DNA from: a virus | Virus record (IMG/VR): IMGVR_UViG_3300050821_007995 | Location: 1-45,413 of that record | Reading direction: 5' to 3' (one strand) | DNA: 45,413 bases | In this document: piece after piece, positions 2,925 through 18,899 of the stretch | How positions within the stretch are numbered: position 1 is the first letter of the stretch | How the letters are laid out: the number at the start of each line of letters is the position of its first letter | Made by a program: the position numbers and the translations under genes | The notes under the pieces: generated by a model | Told to the model about the DNA's origin: nothing | Databases searched by the model: none | Seen by the model: the letters and a program-made list of their open reading frames with translations, nothing else

Positions 2925-4555
2925 TGCACGCATATCACTGAGAAAGTGTGAGTAGCCATCGTGGCGAGAGAAGCAAAGACCATAGCAGAGGCGGTTAGCG
3001 AGGTGATCGCAAGCTGATCTCCGGCAGTTCCCGGAGTTATGTTACATGTCGGCGCGTATGCCCAAGCTCCGCTTGGGAAGTTCACCTGACAGGAAGTGAC
3101 CGTTCCAGTGCCAACCGTCCCAGAGAATTTATTACTAATGCCACCGATACTTGGTGTGCCTCCGCATGAGGCAACCGTCACGTTGACAAAGTTCTGATTG
3201 TGGAAATCTGGAAAGCTGCCATGTAGGTTGACCAGCCCGACGCTGCCAACCGGATAAGCTCCGTCAAAATATGCGCCTGTGCTATCCGTATCCACGGCAT
3301 ACGGCGTCGCCACGCTGGTGAAGTTTGTGCCAGTTATCCGCGTTGTTGGCGCGCCGAGCACGTGGATCGGGGCAATACTGCCGGAACTTATCGTCACGTT
3401 GACGAATTGCGGCGCCGTTACCGTAACCCCAGTCGGCTTAAACGTTCCGACAGAGCTTGTGCCAATGTAAAGAAGTTGCGGACTGTCTGTGAAGTCTCTA
3501 AACTGCGGCGCGACGATAGCGCCTTGCTGTACGTTCCCGGACAGAACGATGCCATTCGCACTAGTCGCTTCCGCATCAACTAGCACACCAACAATGGACA
3601 CATTTTGAATAATTCCGCCAGCCGTCAGCGGATCGATGAAGAAACCTGTTGGGCAATTAAGGGCGCGACTACCGATAACTTGATAGTTTATTCCAACGCC
3701 GTCATGTGTTGCTGTTGTGTCCGCAGCGTTGAATAGAAAGCCGGCGCCAGTAGTGCAATAGACAGTGTCATTTATCGCTGAGGCGTCCGTTGGACTGTCC
3801 CAGTGATCGAAGCCACCATTTAGCGAATTAGCCGCCACGCTACTTTCGACCAGTGTGTCAGCACTAGCGAGAAACGCTGTGCAGTCGGCCAGCTTGTCGC
3901 AACTTATATTGGAAACGCGGACGAATTGAGCGTTCCGGACGAAGACGCCAATGAGGGAGCCAACTACCGTTCCAGGAACTTTATTCCCATCAATATGGAG
4001 GTCTTTAACTTCTATATGCTTATCCGCGAAGACACTACCATGCTGTGTCGCGGTGACACCGCCGCAGTTTGTGTTAGCGAAAATAGGATCCCACGTAGCG
4101 TTGTCCGACGTAGCGGAGCAGTGTCCGGCTGTGCCGGCTGCATTCCATGTTGCTGAGGGTTGGATAACGCTGGCTGCACCATAACCTGCCAGCGTTTGGT
4201 TACCGCCTGGGCAAAAGTACATTGTACTGCTGACAACGTACGTCTTATTGCTCAGAAGCACATTCTTGCAAGTACTCAGCGCCCGCTGGATGGCTCCAGT
4301 ATCATCCGGCTCCGAAGCGTTTCGGTAGTTGTCGGGTGAGGTAACGCCAGGCGGATAGCCGACCACACCTGGAGGAATGTCTGGAACTATAAGGGCTCGA
4401 CAGAGCGGCGCCGCAGGTACGCCACTTGCCGGGCCAGCCATGACTGAGTTCGGCCCACAAAGGCCGGGGGCGTCAGCCCAGGCCGCGCCTGCAGCTAGGC
4501 TTAGCCAAGCGGCAACGCCGGCCGCTAGGCTAAGACGAAGTCTCGGACTTATCAT
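2921..4555 (-). CDS. Secreted right-handed beta-helix protein, pectate-lyase/tailspike-like (544 aa)
   Basis: ATG at 4555 preceded by AGGGACAGG. Residues 1-27 look like a Sec signal peptide: basic start (SPRLRLS), hydrophobic core, and a cleavage-type AWA-DAP. The mature region has the opening DDTGAIQRALSTCKNVLL, the usual first rung of pectate-lyase-3-type beta helices, followed by many short repeated strands (for example IEVKDLHIDGNK, NVSIVGVLVDAEA). The C-terminal 90 residues (FPSGAWAYAPTCNIT...) form a separate small domain with Cys pairs. Likely a polysaccharide depolymerase. The export signal is unusual for a virion tailspike, which is normally folded in the cytoplasm, so a freely secreted enzyme is possible. 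It lies directly downstream of the small terminase candidate. Confidence 0.8.
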   Translation of the reverse strand: MISPRLRLSLAAGVAAWLSLAAGAAWADAPGLCGPNSVMAGPASGVPAAPLCRALIVPDIPPGVVGYPPGVTSPDNYRNASEPDDTGAIQRALSTCKNVLLSNKTYVVSSTMYFCPGGNQTLAGYGAASVIQPSATWNAAGTAGHCSATSDNATWDPIFANTNCGGVTATQHGSVFADKHIEVKDLHIDGNKVPGTVVGSLIGVFVRNAQFVRVSNISCDKLADCTAFLASADTLVESSVAANSLNGGFDHWDSPTDASAINDTVYCTTGAGFLFNAADTTATHDGVGINYQVIGSRALNCPTGFFIDPLTAGGIIQNVSIVGVLVDAEATSANGIVLSGNVQQGAIVAPQFRDFTDSPQLLYIGTSSVGTFKPTGVTVTAPQFVNVTISSGSIAPIHVLGAPTTRITGTNFTSVATPYAVDTDSTGAYFDGAYPVGSVGLVNLHGSFPDFHNQNFVNVTVASCGGTPSIGGISNKFSGTVGTGTVTSCQVNFPSGAWAYAPTCNITPGTAGDQLAITSLTASAMVFASLATMATHTFSVICVQ

Positions 4556-5114
4556 CCTGTCCCTGGGAAGCTAGGGAGTGGGCCGCAGCCGTCCGGTATC
4601 CCGGATCGAGGATTTGAACCTCTGGAGGTGCACCCCCACTCTTTAAAACGAAGTCGCTGCGGCGCCCGCCTTCGACGGAGGCGGGCGCGGATGCTGTGAT
4701 CGTGACACTACCACCGCCACGGGTGAGAAGCTGTGTGGCTATGTCCTCAGCAGTCACTCGACTGCCCTCACCGTCATCCGCCCCGCGCCCAAACCCTCGG
4801 TACCCCATCCCCTTAAACCACATCTCTGCGGCGCGCAGACCGACGCCTTCATCCTGCGAACAAAGCCCATTATCCAGCGCCCGCAACGCCTTCGGCTTCA
4901 TTCTTAGGAACTCATCATCTACGTCGTCCAGCCGGCGCCGCAGCTCATCCTTATAAGACTGGCGATGGACGATATTAGCGACTGTCGCCTCGCTCATCTC
5001 TAGAACGCCTGCGATCTCCTTCTGCCGGAAGCCACGCAACTCCAAGCTCATCACGAGCGAAGCCTTACGGTCCGTGCTAGGCCGCTGCTTACCGTGTGGG
5101 TCGAAGGTCGGCAC
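4530..5114 (-). CDS. Small terminase-like DNA-binding protein (194 aa)
   Basis: GTG start at 5114. Residues about 25-55 form a helix-turn-helix (GFRQKEIAGVLEMSEATVAN), preceded by a basic N-terminus. The next section (KPKALRALDNGLCS and LRAAEMWFKGMGYRG) is the helical pattern seen in phage small terminase subunits of the HTH type. The C-terminus is Gly/Ser-rich and low in structure. It is an early gene of the leftward late arm, about 7 kb upstream of the large terminase through the circular junction, with lysis and tail genes in between. A transcription regulator is the main alternative. The stop overlaps the next start by 26 nt. Confidence 0.65.
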   Translation of the reverse strand: MPTFDPHGKQRPSTDRKASLVMSLELRGFRQKEIAGVLEMSEATVANIVHRQSYKDELRRRLDDVDDEFLRMKPKALRALDNGLCSQDEGVGLRAAEMWFKGMGYRGFGRGADDGEGSRVTAEDIATQLLTRGGGSVTITASAPASVEGGRRSDFVLKSGGAPPEVQILDPGYRTAAAHSLASQGQDDKSETSS

Positions 5115-5244
5115 GAGGCTTTGCCTTATATATAGGGGACGGCGCCGCTAGACGGTCTGCGACCGCGGGGAGCTGCCGGCCGAGATCACTCCGGGCGAGT
5201 TGCTCGCGGGTGGTGAGAAAAGCATGAAGTGCTTGGTCCTTCAT
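5089..5244 (-). CDS. Small hypothetical protein, first gene of the leftward arm (51 aa)
   Basis: ATG at 5244, with AGGA 8 nt upstream that also forms part of a promoter -10 element. The product begins KDQALHAFLTTREQLARSD and ends in a basic tail (YKAKPRADLRPTR). It overlaps the small terminase candidate by 26 nt in another frame. No family is recognised. If the promoter at 5251-5280 is used, transcription would begin about at its ATG. Confidence 0.5.
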   Translation of the reverse strand: MKDQALHAFLTTREQLARSDLGRQLPAVADRLAAPSPIYKAKPRADLRPTR

Positions 5245-11013: not shown

Positions 11014-11198
11014 TGATAGAATTAGGGCCAAAGTTCTACTGCGACAAATGCCATTTTAGTCATACGCCAGAACATGGTTGTTATAGAGGAACGCCACCAT
11101 GCCAGAAGCCATCTTTCCAGCCGTCATCGACAATACAATCCGTTCCGACTTCAAAGCCTGCGAGCATCAGTGGTTCAGGCGGCACTGCCAAGGGCTGA
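11013..11198 (+). CDS. Small Cys-containing protein overlapping the nuclease gene (61 aa)
   Basis: ATG at 11013 is coupled to the previous stop. The first 30 residues hold a Cys/His set (FYCDKCHFSHTPEHGC). The remaining half is Ser/Pro/Gly-rich and lies in a different frame over the first 100 nt of the nuclease gene, so that part may be unconstrained. Possibly a minimal zinc finger; the call is moderate. Confidence 0.5.
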   Translation: MIELGPKFYCDKCHFSHTPEHGCYRGTPPCQKPSFQPSSTIQSVPTSKPASISGSGGTAKG

Positions 11199-12067
11199 CG
11201 CCTAAGTCTACGCTAAACCTACACCTGCATTTCGGCGGCTGCTTCGCCAGAGGGTTAGAGGTAACGCGGAAGACTTACCATGCGCATGGCGCCAGCGAAT
11301 ATTCAATCTTAACCGGCGCGCGGGCGGCGCTCGGCGCCTGGGGCGACTACGAAATGCCAGACGTGCCGCCGCCTGCGGCCTATAAGACACCTCAAGCATT
11401 GCTTGACGCTCTCTTTTCTTACTTCGTAGAGTATCCGCTCGCCACTGATCGCATCCGGCCGCTCAACCTTGGTGACGGCCCTATAGTTGAAACAAGCTTC
11501 GCCGTACCCATTCCCGGCTGCTATCACCCGGTCAGTGGCGAGCAGCTGACCTACTCTGGCCGCTTTGATATGGTCGGGACCATCGGTTCAGCCGTTTGGG
11601 TAGTCGATGAAAAGACCAGTTCCCAACTCGGCGATCGCTGGCGGGATAAATGGTCACTAGACGCCCAGCCAACTGGTTACTGCTGGGGCCTTCGCCAATA
11701 CGGGCTTAGCCCCGTAGGGGCTATTATCCGAGGCATTGGTATTCTCGGACGTGACATCACCTTCGCCGAAAGCATACAGCCCAGGTCTCCCTGGCAAATC
11801 GACCAGTGGCTCCATCAACTAATCGCTGATGTAGAGCGTATGACACAATGCTGGTACGAGTATCAAGACATACTCAGTCACGAGATGCCAGAATGGACAC
11901 TAAGCGATCCTGAAGGAGCTGCCTTCCCTCGCGCTTTAGATAAAGACATTTGCCACGCCTACGGCCACCCATGCGCCTTCGTCCCCCTGTGCTCTTCAAA
12001 CACACCAGAAGCATGGATGGACGAATACATCGTCAAGCACTGGGACCCTTTAGCAAGGAAGGAGTGA
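11099..12067 (+). CDS. PD-(D/E)XK exonuclease, RecB/Cas4-like (322 aa)
   Basis: ATG at 11099 with GAGGAACG upstream. The core of a RecB-family nuclease is visible: GRFDMVG around residue 155, then VWVVDEKTSS (the D-x-K catalytic part) and QPTGYCWGLRQY (the Q-x-x-x-Y motif). Cysteines near the N-terminus (CEHQWFRRHC) and at the C-terminus (CHAYGHPCAFVPLC) are placed like the iron-sulfur ligands of Cas4/AddB-type enzymes. It is followed by a Sak4-like ATPase and a probable ssDNA-binding protein, a trio known in phage recombination/replication modules. Likely role: DNA end resection for recombination-dependent replication. Confidence 0.85.
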   Translation: MPEAIFPAVIDNTIRSDFKACEHQWFRRHCQGLTPKSTLNLHLHFGGCFARGLEVTRKTYHAHGASEYSILTGARAALGAWGDYEMPDVPPPAAYKTPQALLDALFSYFVEYPLATDRIRPLNLGDGPIVETSFAVPIPGCYHPVSGEQLTYSGRFDMVGTIGSAVWVVDEKTSSQLGDRWRDKWSLDAQPTGYCWGLRQYGLSPVGAIIRGIGILGRDITFAESIQPRSPWQIDQWLHQLIADVERMTQCWYEYQDILSHEMPEWTLSDPEGAAFPRALDKDICHAYGHPCAFVPLCSSNTPEAWMDEYIVKHWDPLARKE

Positions 12068-12071
12068 TGAC

Positions 12072-12269
12072 ATGCACATACGTCAATGGACAGCCCTTGA
12101 CCATGATCTTCGCGTATCGCTAATCGCCCTAGCCGACGCCGAGGCGAGCCAGCTCAACTCCCTACTCCGCCCGGACTATCGGCCGGAGCCCGTCCCGTGT
12201 ATCCCGGATGCAGAGATGCCCCGGGAGAGCTACACCCGTCAAGACTGGCCTGAAGCGTGGAACCTATGA
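12072..12269 (+). CDS. Small hypothetical protein in the recombination block (65 aa)
   Basis: ATG at 12072 after AAGGAAGGAG. Begins HIRQWTALDHDLRVSLIALA and ends SYTRQDWPEAWNL. Mixed helical, no Cys cluster and no membrane segment. The stop overlaps the next start. The family is not recognised; it may be an accessory factor of the adjacent nuclease. Confidence 0.65.
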   Translation: MHIRQWTALDHDLRVSLIALADAEASQLNSLLRPDYRPEPVPCIPDAEMPRESYTRQDWPEAWNL

Positions 12270-12544
12270 GTAAGCCATACTGGTCTAGCCCTACAATTCA
12301 TGACTGCTCAGCAATCGTGATAGATAAAATGGTTACACACGATGCTGTGGCTGGTACCGGAGGAGCGTGGTACACCAGGGTTATTCACTTCAAAGGCCCA
12401 GGGGGGAGAGAAATCTCCTTCTCTGTCTTCGGGGACTACCCAATAACCGTTAGTGTAGAGGAGGCGCAGAAGAATGAAGACGAACACATTACTAATGGGC
12501 CCGCTTGGGACAGGCAAGACGAGATCCCTACAAACCTTGATTGA
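12266..12544 (+). CDS. Hypothetical protein (92 aa)
   Basis: ATG at 12266 overlaps the previous stop (ATGA). Beta-rich centre (AWYTRVIHFKGPGGREISF, then GDYPITVSVEEAQ). Its last 71 nt overlap the start of the P-loop ATPase gene in another frame, where the text becomes polar and probably unconstrained. A small beta-barrel type protein is suggested by the strand pattern; function unknown. Confidence 0.6.
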   Translation: MSKPYWSSPTIHDCSAIVIDKMVTHDAVAGTGGAWYTRVIHFKGPGGREISFSVFGDYPITVSVEEAQKNEDEHITNGPAWDRQDEIPTNLD

Positions 12545-13256
12545 ATGCGGCGTCGGCGTCCGTGTGATCAGCATGGAGCCAGGCATCGAAGACGTGCTTG
12601 GAGACATTAGCTGCGCCGATGGCCTACACTGGCGCTACGTAAAGCCCCTACCGCTCTCACTAGGCGAAATCATGTCGTTCATCAAGAGAATGAACGTCAT
12701 GGGCGTTAAAGCCCTCGCCGAAACCAGCGACCCTAATCGCGGCAAATACACAGGATACTTCGATGTCTTTGAGACGTGTAATTCGTTCGTTTGCGATCGG
12801 TGTGGCGAGTGCCTTGGTGGAGTGGAGCACTGGGACAGCACAACCGCTTTGGCTATGGACGGTCTTAGCGGTTTGTCTAGCCTTTGCCTCCAGTGCCTTG
12901 TTGGGGCAAAGCCCTTCGTAAGCCTGCCGGAATACAAAGCTGCGCAGGAAGCTATCGAAGTCCTCATGAAATGGTGCTTGTCTCAAAACTGTAGCGTTAT
13001 CCTTCTAGCACATACGGATCGAGAGGTCATCCATGAGACCGGAATGGTCTTAACGACAGCCCATACGATCGGTAATAAGCTCGCGCCGAAGCTGACGAAG
13101 ATGTTCAGCGAAGTGCTGATCGCAAAGCGAAGCGAGGGACCAAGACCAAGTTTCACTTGGTCTAACAACGAGCCCGGCATGGAGACGAAGACCCGCAGGC
13201 TCCCTTGGAGCGACAAGCTCGCGCCTGACTTTGGTCAACTCTTTAAGGAGACATGA
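12474..13256 (+). CDS. Sak4-like P-loop ATPase, putative recombinase (260 aa)
   Basis: ATG at 12474 with GAGGAGG upstream. The Walker A motif LLMGPLGTGKTRSL is at residues 6-20, and a Walker-B-like strand NCSVILLAHTDRE lies near residue 175. A Cys-rich insertion (FVCDRCGECLGG, then LSSLCLQCL) interrupts the core near residues 100-145 and may bind zinc. The AAA/RecA-like fold next to a Cas4-like nuclease and an SSB-like gene is typical of phage Sak4-type single-strand annealing/recombination ATPases. Size fits that group. The inserted Cys cluster is unusual. Confidence 0.8.
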   Translation: MKTNTLLMGPLGTGKTRSLQTLIECGVGVRVISMEPGIEDVLGDISCADGLHWRYVKPLPLSLGEIMSFIKRMNVMGVKALAETSDPNRGKYTGYFDVFETCNSFVCDRCGECLGGVEHWDSTTALAMDGLSGLSSLCLQCLVGAKPFVSLPEYKAAQEAIEVLMKWCLSQNCSVILLAHTDREVIHETGMVLTTAHTIGNKLAPKLTKMFSEVLIAKRSEGPRPSFTWSNNEPGMETKTRRLPWSDKLAPDFGQLFKET

Positions 13257-13257
13257 C

Positions 13258-13452
13258 ATGGCAGGATCTTACGCACACTGTGTGGGATTAGACGGAAAGT
13301 TCTGTTTTGACCTAATCGACAACATGAGTGACGCTCATGAAGCCTGTAAAATGATGTTCGGCATGATACAAATCCTAGCTGAACGTATAGGAGACGAATA
13401 TAACGTAATAGAGGCGGCTGAACTAGAATATTACAAGAGAGAAAGGACTTAA
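13258..13452 (+). CDS. Small hypothetical protein (64 aa)
   Basis: ATG at 13258 with AAGGAGACATGAC upstream. Begins AGSYAHCVGLDGKFCFDLID, followed by a helical half rich in Met and Glu (EACKMMFGMIQILAERIGDE). Lies between the ATPase and the SSB-like gene in the same operon. No family recognised. Confidence 0.65.
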   Translation: MAGSYAHCVGLDGKFCFDLIDNMSDAHEACKMMFGMIQILAERIGDEYNVIEAAELEYYKRERT

Positions 13453-13454
13453 CT

Positions 13455-13937
13455 ATGCCCGATTTCACCGGCTTCGATCCCAGGTCGCTTCTAGCGACCA
13501 CAGTCAAAGCGAAGCTTGACACAAAGCTTCCACCTATCCCGCTGACGGAAACAGACGAGTTCCCGTTGCTCTGTTCCAAGGTCGACGTCCGCACGATCAC
13601 AGGTAAGAAAGACGGTCAACAATACATCACCCTTGACCTGACCTATCGCGTCATGGACGAGAGTATTGCGGCACAGATGAACATCGAACAGCCTACCTGC
13701 CGCTATAGCTTCATCCTAGAAGTAAACCAAGGTGGCATGCTTGAGGTTGGCCCGTCGAAGAATATCAAGCTCGGCCGGCTTCTCGAGGCTTCTGGCATCC
13801 ACTCAAAGGAGTGGAGCCTTTCGATGCTCGAAGGCACCACGTGCTTCGGCAAGATTGCCCACCGCCCGGATGAAGATGATCCGGAGATCATTTACAACGA
13901 AGTCAAGCGCGTAGCGGCGACGCCAAAGAGGCGCTAG
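13455..13937 (+). CDS. Probable single-strand DNA-binding protein, DUF669-like (160 aa)
   Basis: ATG at 13455, 2 nt after the previous stop. A beta-rich protein with strands ITLDLTYRVMDE and YSFILEVNQGGMLEVG, then the helical phrase NIKLGRLLEASGI and the closing strand GTTCFGKIAHRPDEDDPE. An OB-fold-like protein of this size, with a conserved phrase of the type G-x-L-x-G-x-x-x-x-x-I-x-H-x-P, beside a Sak4-type ATPase is typical of phage single-strand DNA-binding proteins (DUF669-like). It probably coats ssDNA for the recombinase and the polymerase. The assignment is by pattern and context. Confidence 0.65.
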   Translation: MPDFTGFDPRSLLATTVKAKLDTKLPPIPLTETDEFPLLCSKVDVRTITGKKDGQQYITLDLTYRVMDESIAAQMNIEQPTCRYSFILEVNQGGMLEVGPSKNIKLGRLLEASGIHSKEWSLSMLEGTTCFGKIAHRPDEDDPEIIYNEVKRVAATPKRR

Positions 13938-13941
13938 CGCT

Positions 13942-13956
13942 GAGCGCACTGCGCTC
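13942..13956 (+). repeat. Short stem-loop before the polymerase gene
   Basis: GAGCGCA, C, TGCGCTC: perfect 7-bp inverted repeat in the 66-nt gap between the SSB-like gene and the TTG start of the polymerase gene. May attenuate or separate expression; no T-run. Confidence 0.4.
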
Positions 13957-14003
13957 TCACGACATCTTTCGCGCCATAGCGCTCTTACGTCAGGAGGGAT
14001 ACC

Positions 14004-15806
14004 TTGTCTATCCGCTGCCTAATTGTTGGAGAAGCCTACGGCGCGCAGGAAGAAGAAGCTGGAGCGCCCTTCGTAGGCGCCTCCGGCATTGAACTCAACG
14101 AGGAGCTTGAAGATGCAGGATGGCTGCCTGACGGCACAGCAAAAGAAATCAATCGACACTTATATAACGCAGCTAACGGACGTGAGAGCTGGTCTAACGC
14201 GGTTGCTTTACGAGATAGGATATTCCGAGAGCACGGGCTCGTCCTTACCAACGTCGTCAACGCCCGACCTCCTGGAAACAAAATTGAAGCTTGGTTCCTC
14301 AACGTCACTGATGGACGGAAGTCTGGGTTACCTCCAGTTCACGATCTTTGGCCAAACACCATTATCCGCGAGGGAACGCGTCAGCTTCAAGATGCTGTGC
14401 GAGCAAGCGAGCCTAGGCTTGTGCTCTGCCTTGGTGCAACGCCGCTTTGGGCCATTGGAGGTAGAAGTGGCATCACGAAGTGGCGAGGAAGTAGCCTCTA
14501 CTCGGCTCCGGGTTTCCTCCCTGGGGATCAGCAAGTTGCCATCGCCTGCACCCTCCACCCAGCCGCCGTCCTCCGAGACTGGCCCTGGCGACCCGTCGTC
14601 GTCCATGACCTAAAGCGAGCGCTTCATGAAACCGACTATCCTACACCTGAGCCTGAATGGCAGTTTACAGTCCGACCAGCACTATCCGATACATTGGACT
14701 ATCTTGCGGATCTCTGTCGAGGGAACGGAGACGCCCCTTTGGTCTCCGACATCGAAACAACTGGCGGACATATTACGTGTATTGGCTTTTCGGATGGACC
14801 CGGACGGGCCATCTGCATTCCCTTCCTCGACCCCGGCTCCGCCGACGGAAATTACTGGCGAAGCGCCAGAGACGAAGAGCTGGTTACATTCGCCATTCGA
14901 AGAGTTCTTCGGGGACGAAGAATAGTCTTCCACAACGGCCTTTACGACATGCAAGTCATCCAATCCGATTGGGGCTTTAGCCCCAATTGGACGGATGACA
15001 CAATGATCGCGCAGCACGTGGCATTTCCTGGTATGCTCGGCGCCGGCCTCGACCCCATCACCGGGAAAGCCTCCAAGAAAGGATCAAGTCTTGCCCTCAG
15101 CTTCATTGCCAGTATGTATTGCGCCCAATACCGATACTGGAAAGACGACGGTCGTTTGTGGGACCCTACCATTACAGACGCAGAAAGCTATTGGCGCTAC
15201 AATTGCGAGGACTGTGCCCGGACGTTTGAGTGTCTCACAGCTCTATTGTCCATTTTGCGAGAAGCAGGCTTACTTGATCAATATGCATTCCAATGTCGCG
15301 AACTTGGACCTGCCACCCTCCGAATGATGCGGCGCGGTCTCCGATGCGATATGGAGCTGCGCTCCATGCAACTCCGCAGCACGCGCACCCAACTCCACGA
15401 TATCGAGCGCCGCCTAGAATACATTCTCGGCCACCCCTTCAACCCACAATCCGCCCCGCAAATGAGGAAGCTCTTCTATGAAGATCTTTGTTGTCCACCC
15501 CAATGGAACGGTAGAGGGGAAGCTCGTACCCTCTCATGTGATGACGAGGCACTGGCGAAGATGGGGATGGTCAGACCATTCCTTCAGCCTCTTATCCAGC
15601 GGATTAGCGATTATCGCACACTCAGTGTTCTTGGAGGCAAAGCGACAGGCAGTTCGAAATCCATACTTACCTGCCGTTTGTCGGAAGACAATCGCCTCCG
15701 CACCACGCTCGGCCTATGTGGCGCAGAAACCTTCCGCTATGCCTCCGGCCCTACCGCTCAAGGCGAAGGCTGTAACTTACAGAACATCCTCAAGGTGAAC
15801 GAATGA
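14004..15806 (+). CDS. polA (N-part): Split family A DNA polymerase, N-terminal subunit with UDG-like and 3'-5' exonuclease domains (600 aa)
   Basis: TTG start at 14004 with GGAGGG 7 nt upstream. Residues 1-200 resemble a family 4 uracil-DNA glycosylase: GEAYGAQEEEAGAPFVG, then LTNVVNARPPGNK, then LHPAAVLRD. Residues about 245-420 are a DEDDy proofreading exonuclease: VSDIETTGG (Exo I), FHNGLYDMQ (Exo II) and YNCEDCART (Exo III). Then come thumb/palm elements (FNPQSAPQMRKLF and SDYRTLSVLGG), ending at ETFRYASGPTAQGEGCNLQN followed by ILKVNE and a stop. The Pol I equivalent LQNIPVRNE continues directly into motif A, but here the gene stops. The remaining palm and fingers are encoded at 16891-17661. 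UDG-like domains fused to phage family A polymerases are known. Confidence 0.9.
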   Translation: MSIRCLIVGEAYGAQEEEAGAPFVGASGIELNEELEDAGWLPDGTAKEINRHLYNAANGRESWSNAVALRDRIFREHGLVLTNVVNARPPGNKIEAWFLNVTDGRKSGLPPVHDLWPNTIIREGTRQLQDAVRASEPRLVLCLGATPLWAIGGRSGITKWRGSSLYSAPGFLPGDQQVAIACTLHPAAVLRDWPWRPVVVHDLKRALHETDYPTPEPEWQFTVRPALSDTLDYLADLCRGNGDAPLVSDIETTGGHITCIGFSDGPGRAICIPFLDPGSADGNYWRSARDEELVTFAIRRVLRGRRIVFHNGLYDMQVIQSDWGFSPNWTDDTMIAQHVAFPGMLGAGLDPITGKASKKGSSLALSFIASMYCAQYRYWKDDGRLWDPTITDAESYWRYNCEDCARTFECLTALLSILREAGLLDQYAFQCRELGPATLRMMRRGLRCDMELRSMQLRSTRTQLHDIERRLEYILGHPFNPQSAPQMRKLFYEDLCCPPQWNGRGEARTLSCDDEALAKMGMVRPFLQPLIQRISDYRTLSVLGGKATGSSKSILTCRLSEDNRLRTTLGLCGAETFRYASGPTAQGEGCNLQNILKVNE

Positions 15807-15844
15807 TGAGAAACTCCGTAACGGTTATGTTTGAAGGAGAAATA

Positions 15845-16021
15845 ATGGCTACAGTTGAGGTAGAATTTTTAGGTAATGGAAAGGTAGCCATACACTTACC
15901 AACTAAAGGATCAGTATCAACGCCTTGGAACGAGAGTTCACCGATAACACCAGCACCCTTACCACACTACGATAAGCTAATTCTACCCATGTCGGCATTT
16001 TTCCATACGAGGATAGCATGA
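15845..16021 (+). CDS. Small protein inside the split polymerase locus (58 aa)
   Basis: ATG at 15845 with a strong AAGGAG site; a start at 15803 that overlaps the polymerase stop is also possible. Begins ATVEVEFLGNGKVAIHLPT (two strands), then Ser/Pro-rich. It is the first of three genes between the polymerase halves. Coupled to the next gene by ATGA. Function unknown. Confidence 0.6.
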   Translation: MATVEVEFLGNGKVAIHLPTKGSVSTPWNESSPITPAPLPHYDKLILPMSAFFHTRIA

Positions 16022-16314
16022 CCATCTCCCCAGAGAACTACCTCCACTGCAACAGCGACAACTGGATTAGCGTCCGGAGCGCCGATGGCGTTCTACTCGG
16101 CTGTATCCCTGGGCCCCCTCCGCAGGAGGATTGGCTCCCTGCTCCCCCTCCTCTCGGCAACGTTGAGGTACGCGCCGCCCTAATGTATTGCCTCGTGCCA
16201 ACTGCAGAGCAGCTGCCACTGCTTCACAGCTGGCCCGGCTTCATCCCAGTCACACCGGGGCCGAAGGCGGCTTTGCCGCCTGGCGACCAATCCGACCTGG
16301 GCCAAGCACCATGA
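16018..16314 (+). CDS. Small Pro-rich protein inside the split polymerase locus (98 aa)
   Basis: ATG at 16018 (ATGA overlap) and stop overlapping the next start (ATGA). Begins TISPENYLHCNSDNWISVRS, followed by a strand VLLGCIPG and Pro-rich loops (PPPQEDWLPAPPPLG). The last third (HSWPGFIPVTPGPKAALPPG) is also Pro-rich. No enzymatic motif. It is possibly a small adaptor joining the split polymerase parts, which is speculation from position only. Confidence 0.55.
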   Translation: MTISPENYLHCNSDNWISVRSADGVLLGCIPGPPPQEDWLPAPPPLGNVEVRAALMYCLVPTAEQLPLLHSWPGFIPVTPGPKAALPPGDQSDLGQAP

Positions 16315-16889
16315 CAAACGCAGGCCACTGTATGCCTACGGTATCGGTAGATATGCGGGGACATCTCTTTCTAGACACAGAAACGACCGGCGTCGGGCCG
16401 GACGCTCGGATGGTTAGCATTGCCGCTCAACTTGACCTAAACGGAGAGCCTGGCTGGCGCTTTCACTATCTCATCCAACCTACATTCGACATCCCCTCCG
16501 GGGCAACAGCCATTCACGGGATAAGCACCCAAGTCGCGCGAGACTTCGGCGTTCCGTGCGTGCAGGCGTTAAGCTCAATCGCGTCCCTCTTTAACTCGGG
16601 CCATGATATCAAGCTAGTCGGTCACAATATCGACTATGACCGGCGCATCCTCGCCTACGAGGCAGAGCAATTCGGTCATATACTCCACTGGCCTCAATCC
16701 AACTTCTGCACAATGAGAGTGCTTAGCCCATACGTATGTTCAAACGGTAAGCGGCCTAAGCTTGGCGAAGCCTATATTTGGATGTTTGGCCATCCGCCGC
16801 TGACGGAACTCCACAGCGCCCGTAGCGATATGCTAGCCTGCCGAGAAATCTTCTACGAGGGCGCTAGGCGAAAGCTATGGCAGCTATAA
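16311..16889 (+). CDS. DnaQ-like DEDDh 3'-5' exonuclease between the polymerase halves (192 aa)
   Basis: ATG at 16311 overlaps the previous stop (ATGA). All three exonuclease motifs are visible: HLFLDTETTGVGP (Exo I, D-x-E near residue 20), LVGHNIDYDRRIL (Exo II, near 110) and HSARSDMLACREI (Exo III of the epsilon type, His and Asp near 170). The length matches bacterial DnaQ/epsilon-type proofreading domains. The polymerase N-part already has its own exonuclease, so this locus encodes two. It could be an extra proofreading subunit, a nuclease for host DNA degradation, or a moron gene. The next gene starts 1 nt after the stop and has no ribosome site of its own. Confidence 0.88.
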   Translation: MTNAGHCMPTVSVDMRGHLFLDTETTGVGPDARMVSIAAQLDLNGEPGWRFHYLIQPTFDIPSGATAIHGISTQVARDFGVPCVQALSSIASLFNSGHDIKLVGHNIDYDRRILAYEAEQFGHILHWPQSNFCTMRVLSPYVCSNGKRPKLGEAYIWMFGHPPLTELHSARSDMLACREIFYEGARRKLWQL

Positions 16890-16890
16890 C

Positions 16891-17661
16891 ATGCAACTTC
16901 CAGTCCTCCGGCGCCTAATCATTCCTGACCCAGGAATGACCCTTCTCGATCTTGACCTAAGTGCGGCTGACGCTCAGGTCGTTGCCTGGGCCAGTGATGA
17001 CACGTTGCTAAAGCGACAGCTCCGCTCCGGCACCGACCTCTATATGGAAACAGCAACGGGCCTCTGGAGCGAATGCGCTCACGTCCCCCGCAGTCGGCGC
17101 AAGAACTGCGTTCACTCTGCCGACTATGGCGCAAGCTACAAGACTATCGGAGATAAGTATATAGGAGACCGCTATGTTGCAAAGCGTTGGCTTAATAAGT
17201 GGTTCACTCTCCACCCACGCGTTCGCGCTTGGCAAAGGCAAGTCGAATTCTCCCTCCAAAGCAGCCGAACTATTGCAAACCCCTGGGGCTTTCGCCGTGT
17301 TTACACCGATCGTCTCGATTACATTCTTCCCCAGGCTCTAGCCTGGATAGGACAATCAACCGTCGCGATTACGATCAACAAGATCCTATTGCGTGTAGAC
17401 CATGCCCATGAACACGAGGACCTTCCAATCGAGCTACTCCTCCAGGATCATGACAACTTAGTGATGCAGTGTCCAACGAACCAACTGAACGAGGCGGTAC
17501 CGCGCCTGCTAGAGTTGGCCAAGGTTCCGATCCCTTTTCCCGACCCACTAATCATCTCCGCGTCGTTGAAGACGAGCGAGCGAAGCTGGGCGGACGTGGA
17601 ACCGGTCTTCCTTCACGAGTTCAAACTCAAGGAACTCAGCGTCACTTTCCCGACTGGATAG
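16891..17661 (+). CDS. polA (C-part): Split family A DNA polymerase, C-terminal catalytic subunit (256 aa)
   Basis: ATG at 16891, 1 nt after the exonuclease stop, no clear ribosome site, so coupled translation is likely. Begins QLPVLRRLIIPDPGMTLLDL, which continues the Pol I sequence exactly where the N-part stops. Motif A is LDLDLSAADAQVVAW; the O-helix (motif B) is RSRRKNCVHSADYGASYK; motif C is LLQDHDNLVMQ. Catalytic Asp residues of A and C and the Arg/Lys/Tyr of the O-helix are kept. The residue matching E. coli Phe762 is His, Glu710 is Asp and Glu883 is Asn. The last 193 nt overlap the helicase gene in another frame. Confidence 0.9.
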   Translation: MQLPVLRRLIIPDPGMTLLDLDLSAADAQVVAWASDDTLLKRQLRSGTDLYMETATGLWSECAHVPRSRRKNCVHSADYGASYKTIGDKYIGDRYVAKRWLNKWFTLHPRVRAWQRQVEFSLQSSRTIANPWGFRRVYTDRLDYILPQALAWIGQSTVAITINKILLRVDHAHEHEDLPIELLLQDHDNLVMQCPTNQLNEAVPRLLELAKVPIPFPDPLIISASLKTSERSWADVEPVFLHEFKLKELSVTFPTG

Positions 17662-18899
17662 AAGAATATATCAATGTCCTCGCGCCGAATAGTGAGGCCC
17701 CTGAAAAGTTTCACTTCTGGGTGGCGGTTAGTACAATCGCAGGGGTTCTACGACGGAGGGTATGTATTGATCAAGGAACCTTCAAATGGTACCCTAACTT
17801 CTACATTGTTCTTGTTGGAGAGCCAGGCATCGTTAAAAAAGGCACTGCTATTAAGACTGGCTTGCGTCTCCTTAGGGATATCCCTGGGGTCTCTATTGGA
17901 AGCGATGTGGCCACGTGGCAAGGCTTCCTCAAGCAGCTCGAAGAAAGTATCGACAGCTTCGCCATAGGCGATGGCCCGCTTGCATTCCGCAAGCACGTTA
18001 CAACCAATGCCCTAACCATCCCAATAACCGAATGGGGCACATTCATCAACCCAGAAGACCCGATCATGATTAACATGCTCACAAAACTATGGGATTGTGA
18101 AGATGGGATCAGCCTCTCTAAGACTACACTTACTCAGGGAGACATTACTATCATCAACCCTTTTGTCAACATGCTGGCCGCTACGACCCCGACCTGGATG
18201 CGAGATAACATTCGAACACAGTTTGGGGGATGGGGCCTTAGCTCTCGCATCATATTTATCTTCGCCTCGCGTCCGGCGCGGATCGTTACCTTCCCCGACG
18301 AACTCCAGACGGCCAAGCTTCTAGCTGAGCGTTTGGCCCCACTCAGCACTGATCTTCTTGCTATCAGTAAACTACGAGGCAACTTTGAAATCACGCAGGA
18401 CGCTCGCGCTTTTGCTAAACAATGGAACAGCTCTCATGTCGATCGCCAAATCAATCTTGCTTCACAGCCTGACCATAACCCTTGGCTTAGTTATTTTCTT
18501 GCTCGCAAGCTTGACTATAGCTTTAAATTGGCTATTGTGCTGGCCGCTGCTCGCCGTTCAGAGCTGGTTATTGACTATCCTGAAATCACTGACGCCATCG
18601 CACGAATGGACGAAGTCGAGGGAGAAATGCGGAACATCTTTGGCGAGCGGGAGCGAATGGCTCCGGCGGCAGCAAGCGCCGCCGCCAGAGTGAATAATGC
18701 CGCTTGGGGCCCCCTCCACCTCGCCCTTAAAGCAAACCCCCGCCTCCCCGCTTCCGTCACCCAAAGCTTCCTCGCCCGCTATATGGACTTCCGTTCTGCA
18801 AACGACTTCATGTCCCAGCTCGTCAGCATGCAATACCTTACCCGCGAGCAAGACATCGATGGGCTTTGGTGTACCCTCGGCTCAAAGGCGGAACCCTAA
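17469..18899 (+). CDS. DUF3987-like replicative helicase/ATPase (476 aa)
   Basis: GTG start at 17469 inside the polymerase gene; no later ATG, GTG or TTG precedes the conserved FPDWIEEYINVLAPNSEAPE, so a true 193-nt overlap is likely. The core has YIVLVGEPGIVKKGTAIK near residue 115, a variant Walker A of the kind seen in phage DUF3987-type helicases, then a TIPITEWGTFI strand, DITIINPFVNMLAATTP, and an arginine-containing WGLSSRIIFIFASRP. The C-terminal part is helical (APAAASAAARVNNAAWG). No primase or zinc domain is attached. Likely the replicative helicase, partner of the split polymerase. Last gene of the rightward arm. Confidence 0.8.
   Translation: MSNEPTERGGTAPARVGQGSDPFSRPTNHLRVVEDERAKLGGRGTGLPSRVQTQGTQRHFPDWIEEYINVLAPNSEAPEKFHFWVAVSTIAGVLRRRVCIDQGTFKWYPNFYIVLVGEPGIVKKGTAIKTGLRLLRDIPGVSIGSDVATWQGFLKQLEESIDSFAIGDGPLAFRKHVTTNALTIPITEWGTFINPEDPIMINMLTKLWDCEDGISLSKTTLTQGDITIINPFVNMLAATTPTWMRDNIRTQFGGWGLSSRIIFIFASRPARIVTFPDELQTAKLLAERLAPLSTDLLAISKLRGNFEITQDARAFAKQWNSSHVDRQINLASQPDHNPWLSYFLARKLDYSFKLAIVLAAARRSELVIDYPEITDAIARMDEVEGEMRNIFGERERMAPAAASAAARVNNAAWGPLHLALKANPRLPASVTQSFLARYMDFRSANDFMSQLVSMQYLTREQDIDGLWCTLGSKAEP

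Follow-up and report, generated by a model that had tools for sequence, protein, structure and literature searches.

Conserved His762, an apparently unreported residue class of viral family A DNA polymerases, and its pairing with Asp710 in a split phage enzyme

We analysed a viral stretch of 45,413 nucleotides (positions 1 to 45,413 of IMG/VR record IMGVR_UViG_3300050821_007995, hereafter the window), in which a family A DNA polymerase (PolA) is encoded in two parts and carries His at position 762 and Asp at position 710 (E. coli numbering throughout). Our results indicate that His762 is genuine and conserved, and that it marks a residue class of this known enzyme family which has apparently not been reported before. 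In the aligned sequences, Asp710 together with His762 is a fixed signature of a large clade of phage polymerases and is not peculiar to the window. The features discussed are listed in Table 1.

Table 1. Polymerase parts, active-site motifs and neighbouring genes in the window
Feature	Positions	Strand	Basis
PolA N-part: UDG-like domain, 3'-5' exonuclease, thumb, first palm strands including the R668 equivalent (15735)	14004..15806	+	
Two small ORFs between the halves, 72 and 98 aa	15803..16314	+	
Separate DnaQ-like exonuclease between the polymerase halves	16311..16889	+	PF00929 40 bits; phrog_192 113.5 bits
PolA C-part, palm and fingers (E. coli residues about 684-928)	16891..17661	+	ORF 16891-17658, 256 aa
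Motif A DLSAADAQ with D705, A709, D710, Q712	16954..16977	+	codon-by-codon reading, alignment
Motif B / O-helix RSRRKNCVHSADYG with R754, K758, H762, Y766	17089..17130	+	alignment, model
Ala845 to Gln849, AWIGQ (E. coli Asn845)	17341..17355	+	row comparison
Motif C H-D-N with D882, N883	17449..17457	+	alignment; D882 codon 17452, N883 17455-17457
Primase downstream, with an uncertain start codon; the profile match starts near 17652	17469..18899	+	phrog_14296 183 bits

The codon-by-codon reading of the C-part confirmed the presence of Asp710 (16969-16971) in DLSAADAQ, of His762 (17113-17115) and of Asn883, all of which an earlier sequence-only reading had reported at nearly the right coordinates. 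In motif A, D705 is encoded at 16954-16956 and Q712 at 16975-16977, and in the O-helix the codons of R754, K758 and Y766 start at 17089, 17101 and 17125, respectively. Y734, V761, D765, A845, Q849 and H881 were also assigned by codon; Q712, Y734, V761, D765 and A845 are additional departures that the sequence-only reading had not mentioned. A shift of the O-helix register was ruled out, as the alignment from R754 to Y766 contained zero gaps, phmmer independently paired KNCVH of the window with KTINF of Taq, and in the AlphaFold2 model of the C-part (62-sequence alignment, mean pLDDT 92.6) residues 67-78, containing R754, K758 and H762, form a single helix. In the structure comparison, residues 2-237 of this model matched residues 684-928 of Klenow fragment (1kln) with a Z score of 20.9, residues 631-876 of Bst with 23.2 and Taq (1taq) with 22.2. 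The model of a one-gene relative (L004, 780 aa, pLDDT 92.8) matched M. smegmatis Pol1 over 537 residues with a Z score of 35.8, and its equivalent of residue 762, H617, lies within the O-helix at 609-620. Thus, D705 and D882, K758 and Y766 in a helix, the Pol I fold and the profile score (67.4 bits against PF00476, with a curated cut-off of 34.3) place the C-part in family A, but His762 sets it outside the Phe/Tyr/Leu762 class. The window also lacks Glu710, which is a trait of the sampled Phe/Tyr/Leu762 members and stands outside the published definition. The virus is represented in IMG/VR by a second record (L001), which shows 2 differences in 12,768 bases and encodes a C-part protein that is 100% identical, and the occurrence of the same residues in this independent assembly argues against sequencing error.

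The related sequences were compared in an alignment of 129 members, comprising the window, viral contigs, six genome-bin contigs and three phages, to which E. coli Pol I, T7 gp5 and phiVC8 DpoZ were added. None of the peptide patterns that fetched the 129 sequences spanned position 762. The motif A string DAQVVAW was one of the patterns and the counts of Asp710 are partly biased by it, yet in the 46 sequences where this string is missing Asp710 was kept without exception. D705, A709, D710, H762, Y766 and Q849 were each found in 129 of the 129 sequences, the majority of which are 28-44% identical to the window protein. D882 was present in 128 (the remaining row was gapped), K758 in 127 (Arg in the other two) and Q712 in 123, while the neighbouring positions 760 and 763 varied, as did 883. 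The view that the combination of residues is special to the window enzyme is thus not supported, since it is invariant throughout a large clade. Single-sequence searches with the C-parts of Microcystis phage Mel-JY34 and of L077 retrieved no additional loci. In addition, position 754 was occupied by Tyr in 45 of the 129 sequences. In Klenow fragment R754 contacts the triphosphate, and Tyr754 is one more deviation in the region that binds it.

The case for Asn883 as a third key residue was weaker than that for the other two. Ser883 occurred in 120 of the 129 sequences, Asn883 in the window, L001, L096 (76% identical), L127 and L131, and Glu883 in L121 and L124, which makes 883 the most tolerant of positions 710, 762 and 883. 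Ser883 was also found in a Herelleviridae PolA and in phiVC8 DpoZ, and Asn883 is a minor local variant at a position where Ser is common in phage PolA. Between the window and L096, dN was 0.25 and dS 1.05 in the N-part, and dN was 0.18 and dS about 3 (near saturation) in the C-part. Both polymerase halves are thus under purifying selection in this comparison.

His762 was also found beyond the enzymes with Asp710. For wider sampling we used tblastn of the N-part against phages and the DNA pattern K..VHGTNY in viral contigs, the latter requiring His by design. His762 together with Glu710 was present in Caulobacter phage Kuura, Desulfofustis phage LS06, Pseudomonas phage PaP2, Polaromonas phage Tiera, EBPR podovirus 3 and many contigs; among 98 aligned matches to K..VHGTNY about half had Glu710 and about half Asp710. 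After the removal of near-copies at 80% identity, His762 was represented by at least 168 clusters in the sampled set. Since the reference set had been fetched by a motif A pattern and was biased to Glu710, a second set was collected with patterns outside 710 and 762. In these 80 viral PolA loci, retrieved via patterns at 772-880 (N845-type), every readable residue was Glu at 710 and Phe or Leu at 762.

The comparison of 108 Asp710/His762, 26 Glu710/His762 and 45 Phe/Leu/Tyr762 rows revealed that Val761, Asn765, Ala845, Pro848 and Ser883 are common to both His groups. Except for Ser883, these changes were rare in the Phe/Tyr/Leu rows, which mostly had Asn761. Ala845 was found in 106 of the 108 Asp710/His762 rows and in 24 Glu710/His762 rows, and Asn845 in 43 of the 45 Phe/Tyr/Leu rows. 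Leu706, Ala709, Gln712, Trp716 and Trp846 were additional in the Asp710 group. The window has V761, H762 and A845 of the shared set, but D765, G848 and N883 at the other positions. The co-occurring changes look like a rebuilt nucleotide-sugar and primer-end pocket, and they may represent a single shared inheritance rather than functional coupling.

In a quick IQ-TREE analysis of 181 rows with the trait columns removed, His762 required 1 change (the support for the His group was only 60) and position 710 required 2. The Asp710 group of 108 rows had an SH-aLRT support of 99, and a lone further Asp710 sequence, v_L165, was placed among the PaP2-like His762 enzymes. When twelve signature columns were taken out, a more careful tree, built from 75 rows, supported the Asp710 group at 100/99 and gave 2-3 changes for His762. 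The placement of the Asp710 group and v_L165 implies at least two appearances of Asp710, both on a His762 background.

The N-part of the window polymerase matched PF03167 (UDG superfamily, 47 bits), PF00476 and phrog_17 (141 bits), and its exonuclease residues D249, E251, D315, Y399 and D403 are intact. The N-part ends with NLQNILKVNE followed by a stop, and the C-part starts at the loop before motif A, which corresponds to a coil (531-552) in the L004 model. The C-part was an ORF of its own in 87 of the 129 sequences and belonged to one gene in 37, whereas five sequences break elsewhere. On the tree, the split and whole states required at least 20 changes, 7 of them forced by well-supported branches. 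Both halves were available in 81 loci, and in the 79 that were measurable the gap between them had a median of 453 bases and a maximum of 2,899, the halves overlapping by 4 or 1 bases in nine loci. A group I or II intron or a split intein at the break was rejected, as no Rfam match was obtained in 13900-18000 at E values up to 1 and no intein sequence was seen at the end of the N-part. In L037, L039, L052, L069, L102 and L141 (Kuura), PolA is interrupted elsewhere, either behind the exonuclease or within the thumb, and breakage is thus not confined to one site; PolA of L012 is apparently in three pieces (UDG-like 1838-2497, exonuclease/thumb 3140-4150, palm/fingers 4404-5213). L071 (5944-7632) and L073 (5968-7632) have inteins of ~300 aa precisely between Gln849 and Ser850 (C...GN, then STV).

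The scan of 67 ORFs from the gaps identified 14 dUTPases, 5 ribonucleotide reductases, 2 HNH proteins and 2 RNase_T exonucleases, one of which is that of the window. The dUTPase and ribonucleotide reductase genes recur in the gaps, where long ORFs also occur (e.g., L044:3250-4995, L041:3103-4803 and L140:4057-5772). With the UDG-like N-part, they form a possible theme of uracil exclusion and nucleotide supply; dUTPase is absent from the 45.4 kb record of the window. The UDG-like domain of the window begins nearly at GEAYG (14004-14100) and lacks the cysteines that lie upstream in vir526 (NCKFCP), which suggests that the iron-sulphur cluster site may have been lost. A homologue of the phrog_14296 primase follows the polymerase in 115 of the 117 loci with enough sequence. 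Upstream of the polymerase (11099-13937) we found a PD-(D/E)XK exonuclease, a Sak4-like annealing protein and a conserved protein of 160 aa without a family match, homologues of which were present in 104 of the scanned loci.

The classification of viral polymerases by residue 762 reportedly started with a 2014 survey. Our literature search for His762 with DNA polymerase returned nothing relevant, and an earlier mention is possible, for example in the 2014 survey, which was outside its coverage. Residue 762 of viral PolA has been reported solely as Leu, Tyr and Phe (PMC6302109; 2,095 hybrid-assembly peptides in the text, the three classes summing to 2,045), and the same three variants are repeated in PMC13228545. 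The largest survey, published in 2022, kept only proteins of at least 400 aa with F, L or Y at 762 (PMC9069017), and these filters removed His762 and all split enzymes.

The window polymerase resembles the Phe/Tyr/Leu762 viral PolA (PMC6302109, PMC9069017) in the family A fold, D705, K758, Y766, D882, the R668 equivalent and the proofreading exonuclease, and differs from them in His762 and Asp710. PolA of Pseudomonas phage PaP2 and Polaromonas phage Tiera is alike in His762, Val761, Asn765, Ala845 and Ser883 (a trait of the group, the window having N883 and D765), but has Glu710 and is encoded by one gene, and that of PaP2 gave no UDG domain match. The enzymes of phage Mel-JY34, phage MW202489 and Vibrio phage VS-ABTNL-3 are closer in having both Asp710 and His762, with Ser883 where the window has N883. 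A UDG domain was present, as in the window, in the PolA of Mel-JY34 and VS-ABTNL-3, the two that were scanned. The VS-ABTNL-3 polymerase is split at the same position as that of the window (ATB52665 and ATB52663), and the ORF in its gap did not match the window exonuclease; in contrast to the window, Mel-JY34 and MW202489 have PolA in one gene. In MEP401-type OM43 phages (PMC10580990) a small ORF separates the two genes that encode the DNA polymerase, a likeness to the window in gene layout. DpoZ of the 2-aminoadenine phage phiVC8 is a phage PolA with Ser883, but its Leu762 and Glu710 distinguish it from the window enzyme.

In family A polymerases the sugar is sensed by positions 710 and 762, with residue 710 acting as the steric gate against ribonucleotides and the ring of residue 762 packing against the sugar; Tyr762 adds a bond to the beta phosphate (PMC13228545). 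Given these roles, the window enzyme is most likely an ordinary polymerase for dNTPs in which the discrimination of sugars is altered, and the altered substrate selection suggested by the sequence-only reading is a sound expectation as far as the sugar is concerned. We consider it probable that the products of the two genes form a replicative DNA polymerase of family A that is active and whose sugar gate has been rebuilt. The UDG-like domain, the proofreading exonuclease and the thumb would come from the N-subunit, together with the R668 equivalent, and the catalytic palm (D705, D882) and the fingers (K758, Y766) from the C-subunit; the separately encoded subunits would have to assemble without covalent joining. 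In the His762 class the pocket positions (Val761, His762, Asn765, Ala845, Pro848, Ser883) would have changed together, and on the branch of the window Glu710 would then have been replaced by Asp, with Ala709 and Gln712. The imidazole of His762 would take the place of the Phe/Tyr ring against the sugar and could serve as a hydrogen-bond donor like Tyr762, and Asp710 would retain the carboxylate at the steric gate. The discrimination of ddNTPs and rNTPs is predicted to be unlike that of Phe762 enzymes, with an acceptance of ddNTPs that would most likely be Tyr762-like. We regard it as rather doubtful that Asp710 and His762, paired between motif A and the O-helix, form a new sugar gate with a different ddNTP/rNTP selectivity, which would make His762 a fourth functional class.

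Compensated drift is a possible explanation, though not the one we favour. His762 and Asp710 would then have been fixed once or a few times and held by the surrounding residues, with nucleotide selection equal to that of Phe762/Glu710 enzymes, which is consistent with the low number of origins in the trees (His762 requires 1-3 changes and Asp710 requires 2) and with the other active-site positions altered alongside. However, H762 and D710 are wholly invariant in very divergent sequences, while 760, 763 and 883 vary, and in T7 residue 762 alone alters the efficiency of the enzyme and the infection dynamics of the phage (PMC13228545). It is unlikely that the sugar gate is relaxed to the point of appreciable ribonucleotide incorporation: the steric-gate role of Glu710 (PMC13228545) and the side chain of Asp, shorter by one carbon, point that way, but the carboxylate is still present and the proofreading residues are intact. 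The sequence-only reading had linked the residues to modified bases or to the extra DnaQ-like exonuclease, and an adaptation of either kind now seems very improbable, even though the exonuclease gene lies between the halves. The closest relative, L096, carries the same residues, yet its 8.9 kb gave no homologue of this exonuclease, homologues occur in just a handful of loci, and the N-part has intact proofreading residues of its own. As for modified bases, positions 710 and 762 contact the sugar and not the base, and no match to PurZ (PF00709) or to a thymidylate-synthase-like gene was obtained in the 45.4 kb of the record, which is possibly incomplete. Finally, misalignment or a decayed, inactive polymerase, which a gene in two pieces and several changed but normally fixed residues might suggest, is hardly credible in view of the ungapped O-helix with R754, K758 and Y766 and its helix in the model, the separate C-part in 87 of 129 sequences, the invariant D705, D882 in every row but a gapped one, and dN well below dS.

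Residue 762 serves to classify viral polymerases, and phage lifestyle is inferred from it, in every case with Phe, Tyr or Leu as the possible states. His is a fourth state at this position, which is found in cultured Pseudomonas phages as well and was filtered from the largest survey by construction. The natural change of the steric gate from Glu to Asp, with Glu710/His762 enzymes existing beside Asp710/His762 enzymes, allows the basis of sugar selection to be compared directly, and the recurrent splitting at one loop provides natural two-part polymerases.
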